From the IMG/VR virus record IMGVR_UViG_3300048839_000230, positions 1 to 23,882 of that record: 23,882 nucleotides of DNA; one strand, given 5' to 3'. Positions 5,584 through 17,336 of this stretch are shown here, in pieces; the first letter of the stretch is position 1; every line of letters begins with the position of its first letter. The notes under the pieces are model-generated. The model did no database searches. It had not been told where the DNA came from and worked only from the letters and a program-made list of their open reading frames with translations. Made by a program: the position numbers and the translations under genes. Origin of the DNA: a virus.

Positions 5584-6141
5584 ATGAATCAAAAAACATA
5601 CTCAGCAAAAATGATGTGTGAGGGCGCAGAGGATGAAGACAACGGCGCATTCAAGGCCGTGTTTTCCACTTTTGACGTAATAGACCATCACGGTGACGTG
5701 ACATTACCCGGTGCATTTACCGACGGGCAGCAAGTGATTATTGAGGGCTGGAATCATAATTACACCATGCCCGCCGGAGTTGGTGCAATTTATTCCGATG
5801 AAAGCAAGGCATGGGTGGAAGGGCGTTTCTTTTTAGACACGGCCGTTGGGCTAGAAAACTATCGTACCGTCAAGGCGCTGGGCAATTCTGAATGGAGCTA
5901 CACCTTTGACATTCTGGCAGCGGAGCCGGGTACAAAAGACGGGCGACCCGTGCAACTGCTGAAAGCGCTGGACGTGGTAGGGGTTGCGCCGGTAACGCGG
6001 GGGGCGGGTATCGGTACGCACACAATTATGGTAAAATCCCAACAGGCACAAAACGAAGGCGAGGCCGGAGACGGTAAGCCGAGCGGTGTAGCGCCTGCTG
6101 TTTTATTGGCAAAAATTAAATTGATGGAGATGGAACAATGA
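5584..6141 (+). CDS. HK97-type prohead protease (U35)
   Basis: A serine protease that cleaves the capsid N-terminal delta domain during head maturation. From ATG 5584 the product is 185 residues. Family features are FSTFDVIDHHGDVTLPGAF (27-45), GWNHNYTMPAG with probable catalytic H58, EWSYTF with probable catalytic S105, and LKALDVVGVAPVTRGAG near the C-terminal end of the domain. An in-frame ATG at 5578 is possible, but GGGAG (5573-5577) abuts it, whereas it sits 6 nt from ATG 5584, so the latter is chosen. The stop overlaps the capsid start (ATGA). Confidence 0.92.
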   Translation: MNQKTYSAKMMCEGAEDEDNGAFKAVFSTFDVIDHHGDVTLPGAFTDGQQVIIEGWNHNYTMPAGVGAIYSDESKAWVEGRFFLDTAVGLENYRTVKALGNSEWSYTFDILAAEPGTKDGRPVQLLKALDVVGVAPVTRGAGIGTHTIMVKSQQAQNEGEAGDGKPSGVAPAVLLAKIKLMEMEQ

Positions 6142-7445
6142 ACACGAATGATTTGCATGAGCAAATGAGAAAGGCGCTGAACGACGCCGGAACCATCGCA
6201 GACCGCGCCACCGCCGAAAACCGAGACTTCACCGCCGAAGAGCGCGTAGCCATTGAAGGCTACATGAAAGAAGCTGGCGACCTGAAAGCAAAAATCAAAA
6301 GCGCCAACAGTGACAATGACCTGCGCAACCAACTGGCAGGGCTGGGCGCTGATTTGCCGCAAGCCGCAACGCCGCAAAAGAAAAGCAACGGGCCGGGCGC
6401 TCCTGCGGGCAACGGGCAAACGATTGGCGAGCGTTTTGTTAACGCCGCCGCTTACCAGCAATGGTACAAGTCGGTTGCACCTAACGGGTTGATTCCCGAA
6501 AGCCGCAAAGGGCTGTCGTCCCCCTCGGTGGACGTTGGGCACTTTGGTATGTTCCGCAAGGACTTGATTACCGGCAGCAGCGCCACCAGCGCCGGGGCGT
6601 GGATTATCCCTGACCAAAGCGGGATTTATGAACCGCTGGGGCGTTACCCGCTTAACCTGCGCAGTCTGATTTCTGTGCGCACCACCATGTCTGATAGCGT
6701 GGAATTCGTACGGCAAACAACCCAAGTCACCCAAGCCGCGCCGGTTCCTGAGGCAAACGTGACGACCTATACCGGGGCAACCGGGCAGGTGCAAGGACTG
6801 AAACCAGAAGGCTCGACAACTTTTGAACGGGTCAACGAGCCGGTCAAAACGATTGCCGTTTGGATTCCGGCAACCAAGCGCGCACTGTCCGACGCCGCCC
6901 AACTGCGAGGGCTGATTGATCAAGAGCTGCGGGAAGATTTGGCGGAAGAGTTGGAAAACCAACTGCTGAACGGTGACGGCTCTGGCGAAAACTTTACCGG
7001 GCTGGCTAACACCGCCAACACGCTGAGCCAGGCATTTACCACTGACATCATCACGACAACCCGCAAGGCTATCACTTACCTTAAGACTGCTGGAAAAACG
7101 CGCCCGACCGCGTGGCTGATGCACCCGCAAGATTGGGAAACCATTGACCTGCTGAAAGACGATCAAGGGCGTTACTATTGGGGTGGCCCGATGTCGCAAG
7201 GCGCGCAGGTTTTGCACGGCATTCCGGTCGTTGAATCCTTCTTTGTCACGCCGGGCGCGGCATGGTTGGCGAACTGGAGCAAGGCGGTGTTATGGGATCG
7301 CGAACAGGCAACTATCACGACCACCGACAGCCACAGCGACTTCTTCATCCGCAACATGGTAGCCATCCTTGCAGAAATGCGGGCGGCGTTTGGCGTGATT
7401 CGCCCCAGCGCCTTCTGTGAAGTTGATTTGTACGGGGGCAGCTAA
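6138..7445 (+). CDS. Major capsid protein, HK97 fold
   Basis: 435 residues. The N-terminal ~75 residues are a charged helical delta/scaffold domain (coiled-coil style, DLHEQMRKALNDAGTIADRA), expected to be removed by the upstream protease. A Pro/Gly/Gln-rich linker follows (about 75-95), then the HK97 core: LITGSSATSAGAWIIPDQ, PLNLRSLISVRTTMSDSVEFVR, an EPVKTIAVWIPATKRALSDA spine-helix region, LLNGDGSGENFTGL, and GIPVVESFFVTPGAAWLANW near the end. This is the canonical order and size for an HK97-fold shell protein. It overlaps the protease stop by 4 nt and is followed by only 3 nt before the glycosyltransferase gene. Confidence 0.95.
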   Translation: MNTNDLHEQMRKALNDAGTIADRATAENRDFTAEERVAIEGYMKEAGDLKAKIKSANSDNDLRNQLAGLGADLPQAATPQKKSNGPGAPAGNGQTIGERFVNAAAYQQWYKSVAPNGLIPESRKGLSSPSVDVGHFGMFRKDLITGSSATSAGAWIIPDQSGIYEPLGRYPLNLRSLISVRTTMSDSVEFVRQTTQVTQAAPVPEANVTTYTGATGQVQGLKPEGSTTFERVNEPVKTIAVWIPATKRALSDAAQLRGLIDQELREDLAEELENQLLNGDGSGENFTGLANTANTLSQAFTTDIITTTRKAITYLKTAGKTRPTAWLMHPQDWETIDLLKDDQGRYYWGGPMSQGAQVLHGIPVVESFFVTPGAAWLANWSKAVLWDREQATITTTDSHSDFFIRNMVAILAEMRAAFGVIRPSAFCEVDLYGGS

Positions 7446-7448
7446 ACT

Positions 7449-9104
7449 ATGACCGCCGTCAATGTCATTTGCCGAAACCTAAATGATGACCGGGTAATAC
7501 CGCGATTCAGCCGCTACTTGGCGGAGCGTTTGGGCTGGACATTGACGGCGGTTCCTGTACCAGATGCGGAGCTTATCTACCTGAGCGGGTATTTTGAGCA
7601 TACGCAATTACCGACATGGCCCAAAGTGCCAGTGATGGCCTACTTTACGCACTACGAAACAGCGCCGCCCAACAATGCGAAGGCGGCGCTGTTTGACAAA
7701 CTAGCAAAGCGCGTCAACCTGCGGATTGCTACCGCGCCCATGTATGCCGATTACTTGCAAGGATTCGGCGATACGATACTAATCAATCCGCCGGTGGAGC
7801 GTGACAGATTTACCATTACCCAACGACCGCAACAAATGACCATCGGCTTATCAGGCTACACATACGCCAACGGCCGTAAAGGTGAGGGCATTGCCGCCGC
7901 GCTTGCCAAGTCAACAAGTAAAGAAGCGGTGTGGCAAGCCAGCGGGCGCGGGTGGAGCGTACCGACCCGCCGCTACGATTGGGCAGAGATGCCGAACTTT
8001 TACCAATCGCTTGACGTGCTACTCGTGACCGCAACAGTGGAAGGTGTGCCTATGCCGCCACTAGAGGCGCTATCGTGCGGCGTGTCGGTTGTCATTCCGC
8101 GCGGCGTTGGCCTGCTTGACACGTTGCCCGATTTACCGGGCATTCACCGATACGAGGCCGGGCACGTTGACGGTGCAGCAAGAGCGTTACAGGATGCCAT
8201 TGACGCCCGCGCCACTGTTGACCGAGCGGCGCTGCGGGATGCCACCGCACCGTACACAATAGAGGCATGGTGTGAAGGGCACGAGGAGGCGGTAGACATA
8301 CTAATGCAACAGCAACCCAAGCCAAGAGTGAAGGCAACCAAACCAAAAATAACGACCGACATTCGCGCCAATACGCGGGGGATTTATTGCGTAGCCTTTG
8401 GTGAGCAAGCGCGGGAATGCGCCGCCATCCTCATGGCAAGCGCCCGCCAATACCTGCCAGAAATACCCATAGCCCTATGCGCTGAAACGCCTATCGGCGG
8501 TGAAGATATTTTCATTAAGCAACCTGACGCCGATGTAGGGGGACGCCGCGCCAAACTAAAGGCTTATGAGCTTGCACCGGCGGAATGGGAGCAGGTGCTG
8601 TATCTTGACGCCGATACCGAGATTACCGGCGACATTCGATTCTACTTCGATTTGATTGCCGATGGGTGGGAATTTGTTATCTGCAAAGACCCGCACTTAA
8701 TGGACACCATGCAATCGTTTAAGCGAGCCAACAATATGGAAGAGTATCACATTACCGAAAACGAGATACACACCATGAATACGCTACAATTTAACGGCGG
8801 CGTGTGGGCATTTGGGCGCAATGAACGGGTAGCCGCATTTTTCAAGCGCTGGCAATCAGAGTGGGAGCGATACGCACAGCGCGATCAGGGCGCATTGATT
8901 CGGGCTATGTATACCGACCCGCTCAAAGTGTACGTGTTGGGCAACGAGTGGAATACATTTGAGAAATATAGCCGGGGCATCACAAGCGCCGGATTGCACC
9001 ACTACCCAGGCCGGGCGCGGCGCTGGAAAGGTTATCTGCCGGGGCGCATTGATAGCCAGGCGGCGTGGCAAATTGTAGAGCAACAAAAGGTAGGCAGGCG
9101 ATGA
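7449..9104 (+). CDS. Two-domain glycosyltransferase (GT-B + GT-A fusion)
   Basis: A 551-residue fusion of two sugar transferases. Residues 1 to ~290 look like a GT-B enzyme: a Rossmann-like start (VNVICRNLNDDRVIPRFSRYL), then EGVPMPPLEALSCG (198-211) with the E-x7-E motif of retaining GT4-type donors (E198, E206). A Lys/Pro-rich linker (~290-303) leads to a GT-A, GT8-like domain: RGIYCVAFGEQARECAAILM, VLYLDADTEITGD with the DxD metal/nucleotide-sugar site at 387-389, FNGGVWAFGRN, and RDQGALIRAMY. It lies between capsid and connector genes, starting 3 nt after the capsid stop, so virion proteins are the likely targets. That is inference; a cell-surface target is the alternative. Confidence 0.85.
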   Translation: MTAVNVICRNLNDDRVIPRFSRYLAERLGWTLTAVPVPDAELIYLSGYFEHTQLPTWPKVPVMAYFTHYETAPPNNAKAALFDKLAKRVNLRIATAPMYADYLQGFGDTILINPPVERDRFTITQRPQQMTIGLSGYTYANGRKGEGIAAALAKSTSKEAVWQASGRGWSVPTRRYDWAEMPNFYQSLDVLLVTATVEGVPMPPLEALSCGVSVVIPRGVGLLDTLPDLPGIHRYEAGHVDGAARALQDAIDARATVDRAALRDATAPYTIEAWCEGHEEAVDILMQQQPKPRVKATKPKITTDIRANTRGIYCVAFGEQARECAAILMASARQYLPEIPIALCAETPIGGEDIFIKQPDADVGGRRAKLKAYELAPAEWEQVLYLDADTEITGDIRFYFDLIADGWEFVICKDPHLMDTMQSFKRANNMEEYHITENEIHTMNTLQFNGGVWAFGRNERVAAFFKRWQSEWERYAQRDQGALIRAMYTDPLKVYVLGNEWNTFEKYSRGITSAGLHHYPGRARRWKGYLPGRIDSQAAWQIVEQQKVGRR

Positions 9105-9562
9105 CCGAGGCAGTGTTAAATATTGGATGCGGCAATCGCATTATTGACGGAGCGGTCAATCATGATCGTAGCAAACACCGCGAAGAGGTGGACGTGGTGC
9201 ATGACCTGAACGTCACGCCGTGGCCGTTTGAAAACGGTGCATTTGACAAGATTGTGGCGCTGGCGGTATTGGAACATTTAGACATTGATTTGTTCGCCTC
9301 ATTTGCTGAGTGCTGGCGGATTCTAAAGCCGGGCGGCGTGTTGGTCGTCAAGCTGCCATTGGTGACAGGTAGCAACGCCTACGATGACCCAAGTCATCGG
9401 TGGTTCTTTACGCTTAAGAGCCTTGACCAATTTTGTCCCGATACGCAACGCGGCAAGGATTACGGATTTTACACGCCGTACAAATGGCGCTACATTAAGC
9501 CGCCTGCACCCAACAATGCGGCTACATCGCTTTGGGCGACATTGGAGAAAATCACGCAATGA
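9101..9562 (+). CDS. SAM-dependent methyltransferase (class I, type 11-like)
   Basis: A 153-residue Rossmann methyltransferase. Visible motifs: AVLNIGCGNRIID (motif I, residues 4-16), VNHDRS (acidic strand 2 region), FDKIVALAVLEHLD (motif IV/post-I) and ILKPGGVLVVKLPLV (motif V/VI). These are typical of small-molecule or sugar-modifying type 11 enzymes. The end (GFYTPYKWRYIKPP) may form the acceptor site. An upstream in-frame start at 9065 exists, but ATG 9101 overlaps the glycosyltransferase stop (ATGA) and begins right before motif I, so it is preferred. Sitting between two GT-like genes, it most likely O-methylates the transferred sugar; that role is inferred. Confidence 0.85.
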   Translation: MTEAVLNIGCGNRIIDGAVNHDRSKHREEVDVVHDLNVTPWPFENGAFDKIVALAVLEHLDIDLFASFAECWRILKPGGVLVVKLPLVTGSNAYDDPSHRWFFTLKSLDQFCPDTQRGKDYGFYTPYKWRYIKPPAPNNAATSLWATLEKITQ

Positions 9563-10206
9563 GCAACGGGTTAGTCATCATTGGCAACCGTGACACGGCG
9601 TTGGAAGGCAAAGCAAATGTAGCCAAGATTCCATACACCTACGCCACTTATGCCGAGCTTGTGACGCCATTCGAGCGTACCCTGATTATAAAATCAGGGA
9701 CGGCAATCTCATTTGGCTTACTGCCTGCGGCGTGGCATTTTCTGGAGCGGTGGGACGCGGCCGTTCCGTTTTGGCGCTATGGGGTGCTGGCTGCTGACCT
9801 GGGCGATGATAGCGACCGCAAGCAAACAGCCGCTATTATCCGTGACTTGCGGGTGCTAGTGCATTCGGTGGAGCTGCTTTTTGTGCGCAACAATGAGGCG
9901 GGGCGTGATTTGGTACAGTTCTGGCAGCACGAGATGGCAAGCGGGGGCGACAAACGGCTGGCATTCTTGCGGGCGCTTTATACAGTCAAGCCGCGCTTGT
10001 GTGTGTTGCCCACATCGTGGCTTAATGCTGTGGAGTTTGAAAACAAACAGGGCATCTATCAGGCGCGGCGGCAACCGATGCGCAACACCGCACCGCTGGT
10101 ACGGGTGGAGGTTGCACCGGGTAGATTTGTGCAGGTACACAAGGGCGATGAGCAACGAGCCATCGCCGCATACGAAGGAGCTAAAAATGGCCGTGCTAAA
10201 CTCTAG
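9559..10206 (+). CDS. Degenerate GT-A-like protein lacking DxD
   Basis: 215 residues from ATG 9559 (ATGA overlap with the methyltransferase). Residues 38-50 (ERTLIIKSGTAIS) align with the EQVLYLDADTEIT strand of the upstream GT-A domain, but the DAD is replaced by KSG. Residues 104-157 (VELLFVRNNEAGRDLVQFW..., FLRALYTVKPRLCVLP, SWLN) align with GVWAFGRNERVAAFFKRW..., LIRAMYTDPLKVYVLG, EWN of that same protein. So it appears to be a shortened, probably catalytically altered paralogue. The tail (residues 179-200) carries LVRVEVAPGRFVQVHKGD, a motif also found in the next gene. It could be an inactive partner or specificity subunit. Confidence 0.7.
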   Translation: MSNGLVIIGNRDTALEGKANVAKIPYTYATYAELVTPFERTLIIKSGTAISFGLLPAAWHFLERWDAAVPFWRYGVLAADLGDDSDRKQTAAIIRDLRVLVHSVELLFVRNNEAGRDLVQFWQHEMASGGDKRLAFLRALYTVKPRLCVLPTSWLNAVEFENKQGIYQARRQPMRNTAPLVRVEVAPGRFVQVHKGDEQRAIAAYEGAKNGRAKL

Positions 10207-10573
10207 CAGTTTCACACAAGATTCACCGGCAATTCGGGCAACAAAAGGCAAGCTGATTAAGGTGGAATTGGAGCCGGGGCGGTCGGTAAAAATGTACGAA
10301 GCCGATGCCATTGCACGCGGGCTTGTCAAGAGCCGCCCAGCCCAGCAAAACAAGATGATGCCACCGGCAGAAAACAAGGCGGCCGTACCTGAGCAACCAG
10401 CCGCACCCGCGCCAACAGGCGATGACTTTACAACCATTCCGGGCATTGGCAAGGCAGCAGCACGGGCGATTAACGCAGCGGGCATTACCACATTTGAGCA
10501 ATTGCGCACTGCCGATTTGAGCTTTTTAGCGCAACGGGCGCAGGAAGCAATCGAGGTTTGGAGGGCTGAATGA
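10187..10573 (+). CDS. Helix-hairpin-helix protein in head module
   Basis: A 128-residue protein from ATG 10187, with AAGGAG (10175-10180) at 6-nt spacing inside the end of the previous gene (20-nt overlap). Three parts are visible: an N-terminal beta motif LIKVELEPGRSVKMYEAD (23-40); a Pro/Ala/Gln linker (about 50-78); and a C-terminal helix-hairpin-helix FTTIPGIGKAAARAINAAGI (81-100) followed by TTFEQLRTADLSFL. HhH domains bind the DNA backbone or protein partners. Short linker-HhH proteins between capsid and connector genes occur in some phages, but no role is established. Possibilities are a capsid-associated minor protein or a contact with packaged DNA. Confidence 0.75.
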   Translation: MAVLNSSSFTQDSPAIRATKGKLIKVELEPGRSVKMYEADAIARGLVKSRPAQQNKMMPPAENKAAVPEQPAAPAPTGDDFTTIPGIGKAAARAINAAGITTFEQLRTADLSFLAQRAQEAIEVWRAE

Positions 10574-11187
10574 GTGCCAGCGAATTTACCACACGTGGCG
10601 ACGTGGAAGCCTTTTTGCAGAATGCCGGGCTGATTACTACCGGGCTTTTACAGGATAGCATTGACCGCGCATTACGCGAGGCCGATGCCGCTATTCGCAA
10701 CTACACCAACCAATACCTGTCGTTTGTGGAAGATGACACGGTGACAATTGATGGCGGCGGGCGCGTGATATTCTTGCCGCAACTGCCAGTAACAGAAGTT
10801 GTAAGTATTGAAGAGGACGGCGAGGCGTTGACCGTCACCGATGATTATATTGTCGGGCGCTACGGCGTTATCCACCGCGTGGGGCGGCGTTGGGCGACGG
10901 GCATCCAAAACATTGTCGTCACCTATTCGCACGGCTACGAAAGCATCCCGCAGGACATCACCGACATTGCCACACGAGCCGCCAGCCGCGCATATCAGGC
11001 TGGATTAAAAGCGGCTGATACTGCCGGTGTGCCGGGTGTGCAATCCAAAACGCTGGGTGATTTTAGCGTGACTTTTGCCGGTGACGGCAACATAGCAGAC
11101 GGGCTAATGGGCGCAAGCGGGGCGCGGCTGCTGCTCATGAGTGAGAAGGAAATGCTTAACCGTTACCGATTGGAGCGCCAACTGTGA
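10570..11187 (+). CDS. Head-tail connector (gp6-like adaptor)
   Basis: 205 residues. The N-terminal helix pair (TTRGDVEAFLQNAGL, LLQDSIDRALREADAAIRNYTNQYL) and a following beta region (FLPQLPVTEVVSIEEDGEAL, IVVTYSHGYESIPQDI) match phage gp6-like / SPP1 gp15-like adaptors that bind the portal ring. The ITDIATRAASRAYQAGL helix and the 'SKTLGDFSVTF' strand are also typical. It starts within an ATGA overlap with the HhH gene and its stop overlaps the next GTG start, consistent with a coupled connector operon. Confidence 0.85.
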   Translation: MSASEFTTRGDVEAFLQNAGLITTGLLQDSIDRALREADAAIRNYTNQYLSFVEDDTVTIDGGGRVIFLPQLPVTEVVSIEEDGEALTVTDDYIVGRYGVIHRVGRRWATGIQNIVVTYSHGYESIPQDITDIATRAASRAYQAGLKAADTAGVPGVQSKTLGDFSVTFAGDGNIADGLMGASGARLLLMSEKEMLNRYRLERQL

Positions 11188-12306: not shown

Positions 12307-12714
12307 ATGTCTAAAAACGGAACCGATCTGATTATTTTAGTAAACACGGGCACGGATTTAGTGCCAGTGTACGAGGCTGTGGGTTGTCAGCGTGACGCCA
12401 CGATTGACCAGTCCACCGCCGCGATTGACGTGAGTTGTAAGGACAGCCGCGCCCAACGGGTGCTGCCGGGGCGCTATTCCGGCGCGCTTTCCCTTGACGC
12501 GCTGTATGTGCCGACCGGCGCTGCGTACCAGGCGCTCAATGACGCCATGCGTGACGGCAACCTGATTTTGATTGGGCGACAAGATGAAGGCGTGGTAACA
12601 GAGACTGTGCCCGCTTTGATTGAATCCATGTCCGAGACTTTCCCTGACCAAGACGCCGCCACAATCTCCATCTCTATGACGATTGACGGCTTCTGGACTG
12701 TGGTGGGCAGCTAA
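12307..12714 (+). CDS. Major tail tube protein
   Basis: 135 residues, well within the range for short tube proteins of the TP901-1/GTA-like group. It shows KNGTDLIILVNTGTDLVPVYEAVGCQ, DATIDQSTAAIDVSCKDS (the common 'T-x-x-x-I-D-V-S-x-K-D' block), SGALSLDALYVP and SETFPDQDAATISISMTIDG, all expected from the tube beta-sandwich. A strong GGAGG precedes the ATG, consistent with high expression. It is polymerised around the tape measure to form the tail. Confidence 0.9.
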   Translation: MSKNGTDLIILVNTGTDLVPVYEAVGCQRDATIDQSTAAIDVSCKDSRAQRVLPGRYSGALSLDALYVPTGAAYQALNDAMRDGNLILIGRQDEGVVTETVPALIESMSETFPDQDAATISISMTIDGFWTVVGS

Positions 12715-17108: not shown

Positions 17109-17336
17109 ATGATTGTCAGCAGGCGGACGTTTTTGCAAGGCATGGGCATTACCGGGGCGGCGCTATTTGCTAACCGCGCCGGTTTTGGCGTGCTTGTCAA
17201 TGCGTATCAAGTGCGCAGCAATAGCAGCGGGCGATTGATTACCATGCCGTTTGCCATTGCCGGGCGCGATACGCAGCCGGGCGCAAGCCAACCGCACCGG
17301 CTGTACGTGCCATTTGTGGGGGCGGGCCATGAGTGA
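17109..17336 (+). CDS. Small protein with Tat-type signal peptide
   Basis: 75 residues. The N-terminus VSRRTFLQ (residues 3-10) matches the twin-arginine S-R-R-x-F-L-x motif, followed by a hydrophobic span (GMGITGAALFANRAGFGVLV) and a mostly polar mature part (VRSNSSGRLITMPFAIAGRD...PHRLYVPFVGAGHE). No clear A-x-A cleavage site, so it might stay membrane-anchored or be uncleaved. It begins one base after the previous stop and overlaps the next gene by 8 nt (ATGAGTGA), so it is embedded in the tail operon. A folded, exported product is an unusual prediction for a phage tail locus. Function unknown. Confidence 0.6.
   Translation: MIVSRRTFLQGMGITGAALFANRAGFGVLVNAYQVRSNSSGRLITMPFAIAGRDTQPGASQPHRLYVPFVGAGHE

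Follow-up and report, generated by a model that had tools for sequence, protein, structure and literature searches.

We present evidence that an uncultured phage probably glycosylates its own virion by means of a small gene cassette presumably expressed together with its head operon. The DNA in question, hereafter the window, is an IMG/VR virus record, which was analyzed over its full 23,882 bases. Its cassette encodes a two-domain glycosyltransferase (GTfus), a methyltransferase (MT) and a glycosyltransferase-like protein (GTA), and is situated between the genes for the major capsid protein (MCP) and the head-tail adaptor. Self-modification of the virion had been proposed in the initial annotation of this sequence, and every genomic prediction of that proposal that could be tested had a favourable outcome. 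In more than a hundred viral contigs, an unrelated enzyme set occupies the same slot within the head operon, accompanied by hypervariable decoration genes that resemble those of bacterial capsule loci. If our interpretation is correct, sugar coats on virions would be widespread among environmental phages and would change quickly, phages could be a source of sulfated glycans, and the target proteins could be predicted with the help of sequence alone.

The head-tail module of the window is of the siphophage type, with TerL, portal, S78 protease, HK97-type MCP, connectors, tail terminator, major tail protein and tape measure; the genes and domains of this module and of the cassette for which we give coordinates are all on the plus strand. 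The upstream border of the cassette is formed by the MCP gene (6138..7445; Phage_capsid, E 8e-45; phrog_10), whose product ends in ...DLYGGS, the last residue being Ser435 (7440-7442), followed by a TAA stop at 7443-7445. The ATG of GTfus lies at 7449, leaving the 3-nt gap that had been noted previously, and the cassette genes are indeed joined by ATGA overlaps, at 9101 (GTfus/MT) and 9559 (MT/GTA). At the downstream border, the adaptor gene (10570..11187; phrog_442, E 3e-34) is found where the connector genes had been said to resume, but a gene for an HHH-domain protein (10187..10573; HHH_5, E 6e-7) had been missed. Its best start is at 10187, after a GGAG, and its end overlaps the adaptor gene at 10570. 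Promoter and terminator signals within the cassette are at chance level only and the G+C content across it is flat, at ~55%, a combination that fits its co-expression, presumably late, with the head operon. The flat G+C also led us to reject the notion that the cassette is a horizontal island recognizable by composition. The RNA elements that were looked for yielded no instance. Among the tail genes there is a small ORF (17109-17336), starting MIVSRRTFLQGMGITGAALF, which resembles a twin-arginine signal peptide.

GTfus (7449..9104) is modeled by AlphaFold, with a pLDDT of 92.9, as two domains separated by a disordered linker (residues 292-306). The N-terminal domain (residues ~1-291; 7449..8321) is a glycosyltransferase family 4-like domain, as seen from its GT-B fold, its score of 28.0 bits against Pfam Glycos_transf_1 (PF00534; cut-off 26.4) and its E198-x7-E206 motif. 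The C-terminal domain (residues ~309-551; 8373..9101) is of the GT-A, GT8-like type and bears D387-A-D389; its match to Pfam Glyco_transf_8 (PF01501), at 21.7 bits, is below the cut-off of 24.3. Both the GT-B + GT-A fusion and the positions of the two motifs had thus been correctly recognized at the outset, and none of the four residues E198, E206, D387 and D389 varies among 73 GTfus homologues sharing 39-66% identity. Foldseek searches with the model recovered the GT4-type enzymes SenB, PglA, TarM and SdgB (best E 1.8e-11) and, lower in the list, the two-domain exostosins EXT1/EXT2 (TM 0.27-0.29). In several relatives (L006, L015 and others) the GT-B and GT-A domains are encoded by separate reading frames, and their fusion is therefore probably not needed for function. 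The adjacent gene (9101..9562) encodes a short class I SAM-dependent methyltransferase of 153 aa, in agreement with the earlier assignment: it matches Methyltransf_11 (E 1e-9; 39.3 bits, cut-off 21.2), with conservation of the motifs LNxGxG (motif I), EHL and DP(T/S)H.

The third protein, GTA (9559..10206), found no match in sequence searches of Pfam, PHROG and the PDB. Its AlphaFold model is confident (pLDDT 91.7) and has GT-A proteins as structural neighbors, the nearest solved fold being A197 of STIV (E 2.6e-4, TM 0.39). By hhalign (prob 87, E 4e-6) it aligns with the C-terminal, GT8-like domain of GTfus, S-G-T taking the place of DAD, and by this profile-level relationship GTA is a paralogue of that domain. 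Its original description as GT-A-like stands on both fold and alignment; the accompanying statement that it is devoid of DxD holds for the family, as no DxD is conserved across 73 homologues, but is right in this family sense only since the window sequence itself has a non-conserved D-S-D near residue 85. Close to its C-terminus GTA displays a module of ~25 residues (10090..10200, LVRVEVAPGRFVQVHKGDE...), comprising a beta hairpin and a helix with the consensus LVRVExxPGRxVKxHxGDE. A hidden Markov model of this module, run over all ORFs of all loci, recovered 234 ORFs of GTA, 90 of the HHH protein and one overlapping GT-type ORF. In the HHH protein of the window this module lies towards the N-terminus (about 10253-10306), and the relationship between the GTA module and this protein is recovered by hhalign with prob 95 and E 3e-8. 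As the HHH protein of a cassette-free relative (L299) also keeps the module, it may have passed to GTA from this neighbor. The proposal that the DxD-less paralogue may act as a partner or targeting factor gains support from this module shared with the adjacent, head-region gene product.

Relatives of the window were drawn from IMG/VR and from MAG contigs, giving 142 loci, which are mostly metagenomic fragments with mechanical gene calls, are related rather than independent, and include a few near-duplicate contigs. GTfus lies downstream of the MCP gene in all 90 contigs holding both, with no gene between them in 84, and the order MCP, GTfus, GTA, adaptor is seen in 52 of the 52 contigs that hold all four, a recurrence beyond chance. 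A search for relatives with cassette genes far from the head genes, which the initial annotation had regarded as contrary evidence, found none: its genes are next to the MCP gene in each of the 90 contigs, and wherever the cassette is complete it lies between the MCP and adaptor genes. A second set of loci was picked by MCP similarity alone, thereby avoiding ascertainment by the glycosyltransferase; GTfus is present in 71 of its 74 testable loci, and within 300 nt of the MCP gene in 69. The cassette can be said to fill a defined slot, because cassette-free relatives (L299, L230, L233, L263, L290 and L311) run MCP-HHH-adaptor. In a more distant lineage (L014, L017, L023, L099, L154, L156-L159, L163 and L165-L169) the order is rearranged to MCP, a ~145-150-aa protein, GTA, a single GT8, GTfus and MT; one of its members, L014, adds a transketolase-like gene, a likely partner of that gene, and an epimerase. 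Two further loci have ORFs directly after the MCP gene in place of GTfus (L257, 7369-8388; L265, 4607-5209), which are endonuclease-like or zinc-finger-like and are possibly homing-type insertions into the slot. Among named phages, a tblastn search with GTfus against 50,697 phages gave no hit, GTA showed no relative, and the window MT showed one distant relative.

The contents of the slot are far less constant than its position. In 67 complete cassettes MCP and adaptor are 1.9-8.5 kb apart (median 4.1), and 51 gene orders are observed. GTA is present in all 67, GTfus in 66 and a methyltransferase of any type in 64, while a sulfotransferase is found in 28 and an extra glycosyltransferase in 17. 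Nine cassettes, that of the window included, consist of the core with no added enzyme. The window is a minimal version of the cassette, and the epithet 'compact' given to the system in the initial annotation suits it well; across the family, most cassettes are larger and their contents vary. Pfam matches among the decoration genes include Glycos_transf_2, Methyltransf_24, Sulfotransfer_4 (E 3e-32), hexapeptide acyltransferases, UDPG/GDPM dehydrogenase (E 2e-22) and epimerases. The commonest sulfotransferase type is recognized by PF13469 in 20 of its 22 members (best E 1.9e-8), though single members may miss the cut-off; one sulfotransferase that was compared with named phages had no match. Contig pairs whose GTfus proteins are 80-87% identical (L067/L077 and L051/L053) carry unlike decoration genes, as expected of antigen-like variation.

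Candidate acceptors emerged from a tabulation of the last residue of each structural protein family over deduplicated loci. A terminal Ser or Thr is present in 93/97 major tail proteins, 83/106 stoppers and 75/104 MCPs; in the other 14 structural families its frequency is 0-20%. The major tail (tube) protein of the window (12307..12714; phrog_1407, E 6e-21), a candidate glycan acceptor, ends in ...WTVVGS with Ser135 as its last residue. Major tail proteins have a terminal Ser/Thr in 76 of 78 cases with the cassette, as against 1 of 6 copies without it (Fisher 4e-6, uncorrected for kinship), and MCPs in 80 of 108 as against 5 of 14 (p 0.01); the same feature in the stopper shows no association with cassette status. 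On trees there are only 1-2 supported independent pairs, which places the association beyond phylogenetically sound testing. Several cassette-free relatives have tandem major tail protein genes (L230, 7738-8525; L288, 9376-10185; and L233).

Named phages served as controls for this feature. In Che8, the positive control, the MCP ends in TGS and the tail protein in DGS, and over Che8, Dylan, Fryberger, mEp390, Poise and Soul22, which have a gp110-type glycosyltransferase, Ser ends the MCP and the major tail protein in 12 of 12 instances. Of the negative controls, TM4 and Reyja have neither protein Ser-ended and HK022 has a terminal Ser on the MCP only. HK97 (SSGS) and Butters (ASS/PAS), both without a known or annotated glycosyltransferase, have both proteins Ser-ended. 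These two phages, and the cassette-independent Ser/Thr of the stopper, weaken the case for reading a terminal -GS as diagnostic of an acceptor; as phages free of such glycosyltransferases often share it, a terminal Ser is compatible with C-terminal glycosylation rather than diagnostic of it. With this qualification, we hypothesize that the tail tube is glycosylated at its terminal Ser/Thr and that in most members the MCP is too.

Taken together, these features suggest a mechanism in which one domain of GTfus would transfer a first sugar onto freshly synthesized virion proteins, the acceptor most likely being the terminal Ser/Thr just discussed, and the other domain would add a second sugar. 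The putative glycan would then be capped by the methyltransferase and, in the relatives, could be varied by swapped-in sulfotransferases, further glycosyltransferases, methyltransferases or acyltransferases. GTA is envisaged as transferring no sugar by itself; instead, it may bring the enzymes to the assembling head by means of the C-terminal module that it has in common with the neighboring HHH protein.

The cassette enzymes could alternatively remodel the host surface, in lysogenic conversion or superinfection exclusion, with their position in the head operon being incidental. An integrase is encoded by 7 of 17 virus records, implying that many relatives are temperate and might undergo lysogenic conversion, and surface-polysaccharide loci, too, typically contain glycosyltransferases, sulfotransferases, acyltransferases and epimerases. 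However, every contig has the cassette confined to the MCP-HHH slot, a promoter signal of its own does not rise above chance, and the shared module ties GTA to a protein of the head region. Moreover, no flippase or polymerase was encountered, and a Gtr-type membrane pathway is disfavored by the core cassette proteins, none of which has a clear membrane segment (KD19 at most 1.63). We accordingly regard a role at the host surface as unlikely. The shared module itself could be read differently, inasmuch as it points to the neighborhood of the HHH protein: only minor virion proteins, such as the HHH protein, a connector or tail fibres, might be glycosylated, with the C-termini of the MCP and tube being unrelated to the process. 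The 28 of 108 MCPs from cassette-bearing contigs that have no terminal Ser/Thr would be consistent with this. Yet the tail tube has a terminal Ser/Thr almost universally in cassette-bearing contigs, and the Che8/Corndog precedent concerns capsid and tail tube (PMC12363180), making a restriction to minor proteins decidedly improbable. Glycosyltransferases that hypermodify phage DNA are also known (Pyle 2024, as cited in PMC12619734), and the cassette enzymes might by analogy glycosylate modified bases. Against this, of the two kinds of base modifier screened for in 17 virus records, a thymidylate-synthase homologue occurs in just one record and a Tet/JBP match in none (in a search where the control matched in no genome), and sulfotransferases and sugar-nucleotide enzymes better fit a glycan; we give DNA as the substrate very little credence.

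To our knowledge, few actinobacteriophages, and no other phages, have been proven to glycosylate virions with enzymes of their own; for the mycobacteriophages Che8 and Corndog this was reportedly described by Freeman in 2023, a study considered here as related by papers that cite it. In PMC12363180, virion self-glycosylation is treated as established for Che8, Corndog and Myrna, and gp110 is named in connection with the capsid and tail-tube glycosylation of Che8. This source and PMC12619734 further place glycans on the C-termini of mycobacteriophage capsid and tail-tube proteins, with Che8 named. A glycosyltransferase with a methyltransferase is read as a sign of virion glycosylation in PMC13313380, and between them these papers (PMC13313380, PMC12363180, PMC12619734) present such systems as established or inferred in actinobacteriophages. 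The window system resembles the Che8/Corndog type in combining phage-encoded glycosyltransferases, the catalytic motifs of GTfus being intact, with a methyltransferase, and it has a terminal Ser on both MCP and tail-tube protein as in Che8. Dylan (Corndogvirus) likewise has its genes, one methyltransferase and three glycosyltransferases, inside the head operon, but in another slot (portal-MT-GT-GT-GT-protease). The Che8 set, a GT2-Methyltransf_24 fusion, a GT2-like protein and a GT25, is encoded ~50 kb from the head genes, whereas the genes of the window adjoin the MCP gene. Likewise distinct are the methyltransferase family (Methyltransf_11 in the window versus Methyltransf_24 in Che8 and Dylan), the DxD-less module-bearing partner, not seen in Che8/Corndog-type systems, and the sulfotransferases of the window's relatives, with none in the stretches of Che8 and Dylan examined. 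Homology of GTfus to Che8 gp108-gp110 was rejected, the hhalign probability being <1% for all three. As judged from these comparisons, the window system probably works along similar lines, but it is built from different glycosyltransferase families and is not a member of the Che8/Corndog type by homology.

Beyond these phages, the SdgB/TarM-type bacterial GT4 enzymes have a GT-B fold like GTfus, but are non-phage proteins with no GT8 domain and ~15% identity; SdgB structures contain an O-glycosylated SD peptide, indicating that the acceptor of SdgB is a protein Ser. The exostosins EXT1/EXT2 have the same two-domain GT-B + GT-A architecture as GTfus, but are eukaryotic enzymes of the ER/Golgi. 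They make heparan sulfate, likewise a sulfated product. The idea that the cassette yields something exostosin- or heparan-like was set aside, the likeness being an architectural analogy only and a UDP-sugar dehydrogenase occurring in only 2 of the 67 cassettes. STIV A197 is a viral GT-A protein thought to glycosylate the major capsid protein of that virus (PMC10551542); its structure (PDB 2c0n) is the closest to GTA, but at the above TM and 12% identity, and STIV is an unrelated, archaeal virus.

With respect to hosts, three of the eight MAG contigs are assigned to Anaerolineae/Anaerolineales and one to Dehalococcoidia; the others belong to Zixibacteria, Eisenbacteria, an unplaced bacterium and a 'Thermoprotei' bin. 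With four of eight in the former groups, Chloroflexota is the likeliest host phylum, binning being weak evidence. Extending the argument considerably, the window may belong to a lineage of phages that are uncultured, probably infect Chloroflexota and have a serotype-like locus in the head operon, in which a fixed glycosyltransferase core and swapped decoration enzymes would place diverse, often sulfated glycans on virion C-termini, and a catalytically dead glycosyltransferase paralogue would use a copy of a head-protein module for docking to the head; this full scenario we offer tentatively, as a possibility that is rather doubtful in its entirety. One relative (L003, IMGVR_UViG_3300026144_000006) also measures 23,882 bases, with proteins ~42-67% identical to those of the window, the equal length being a matter of coincidence or bookkeeping.
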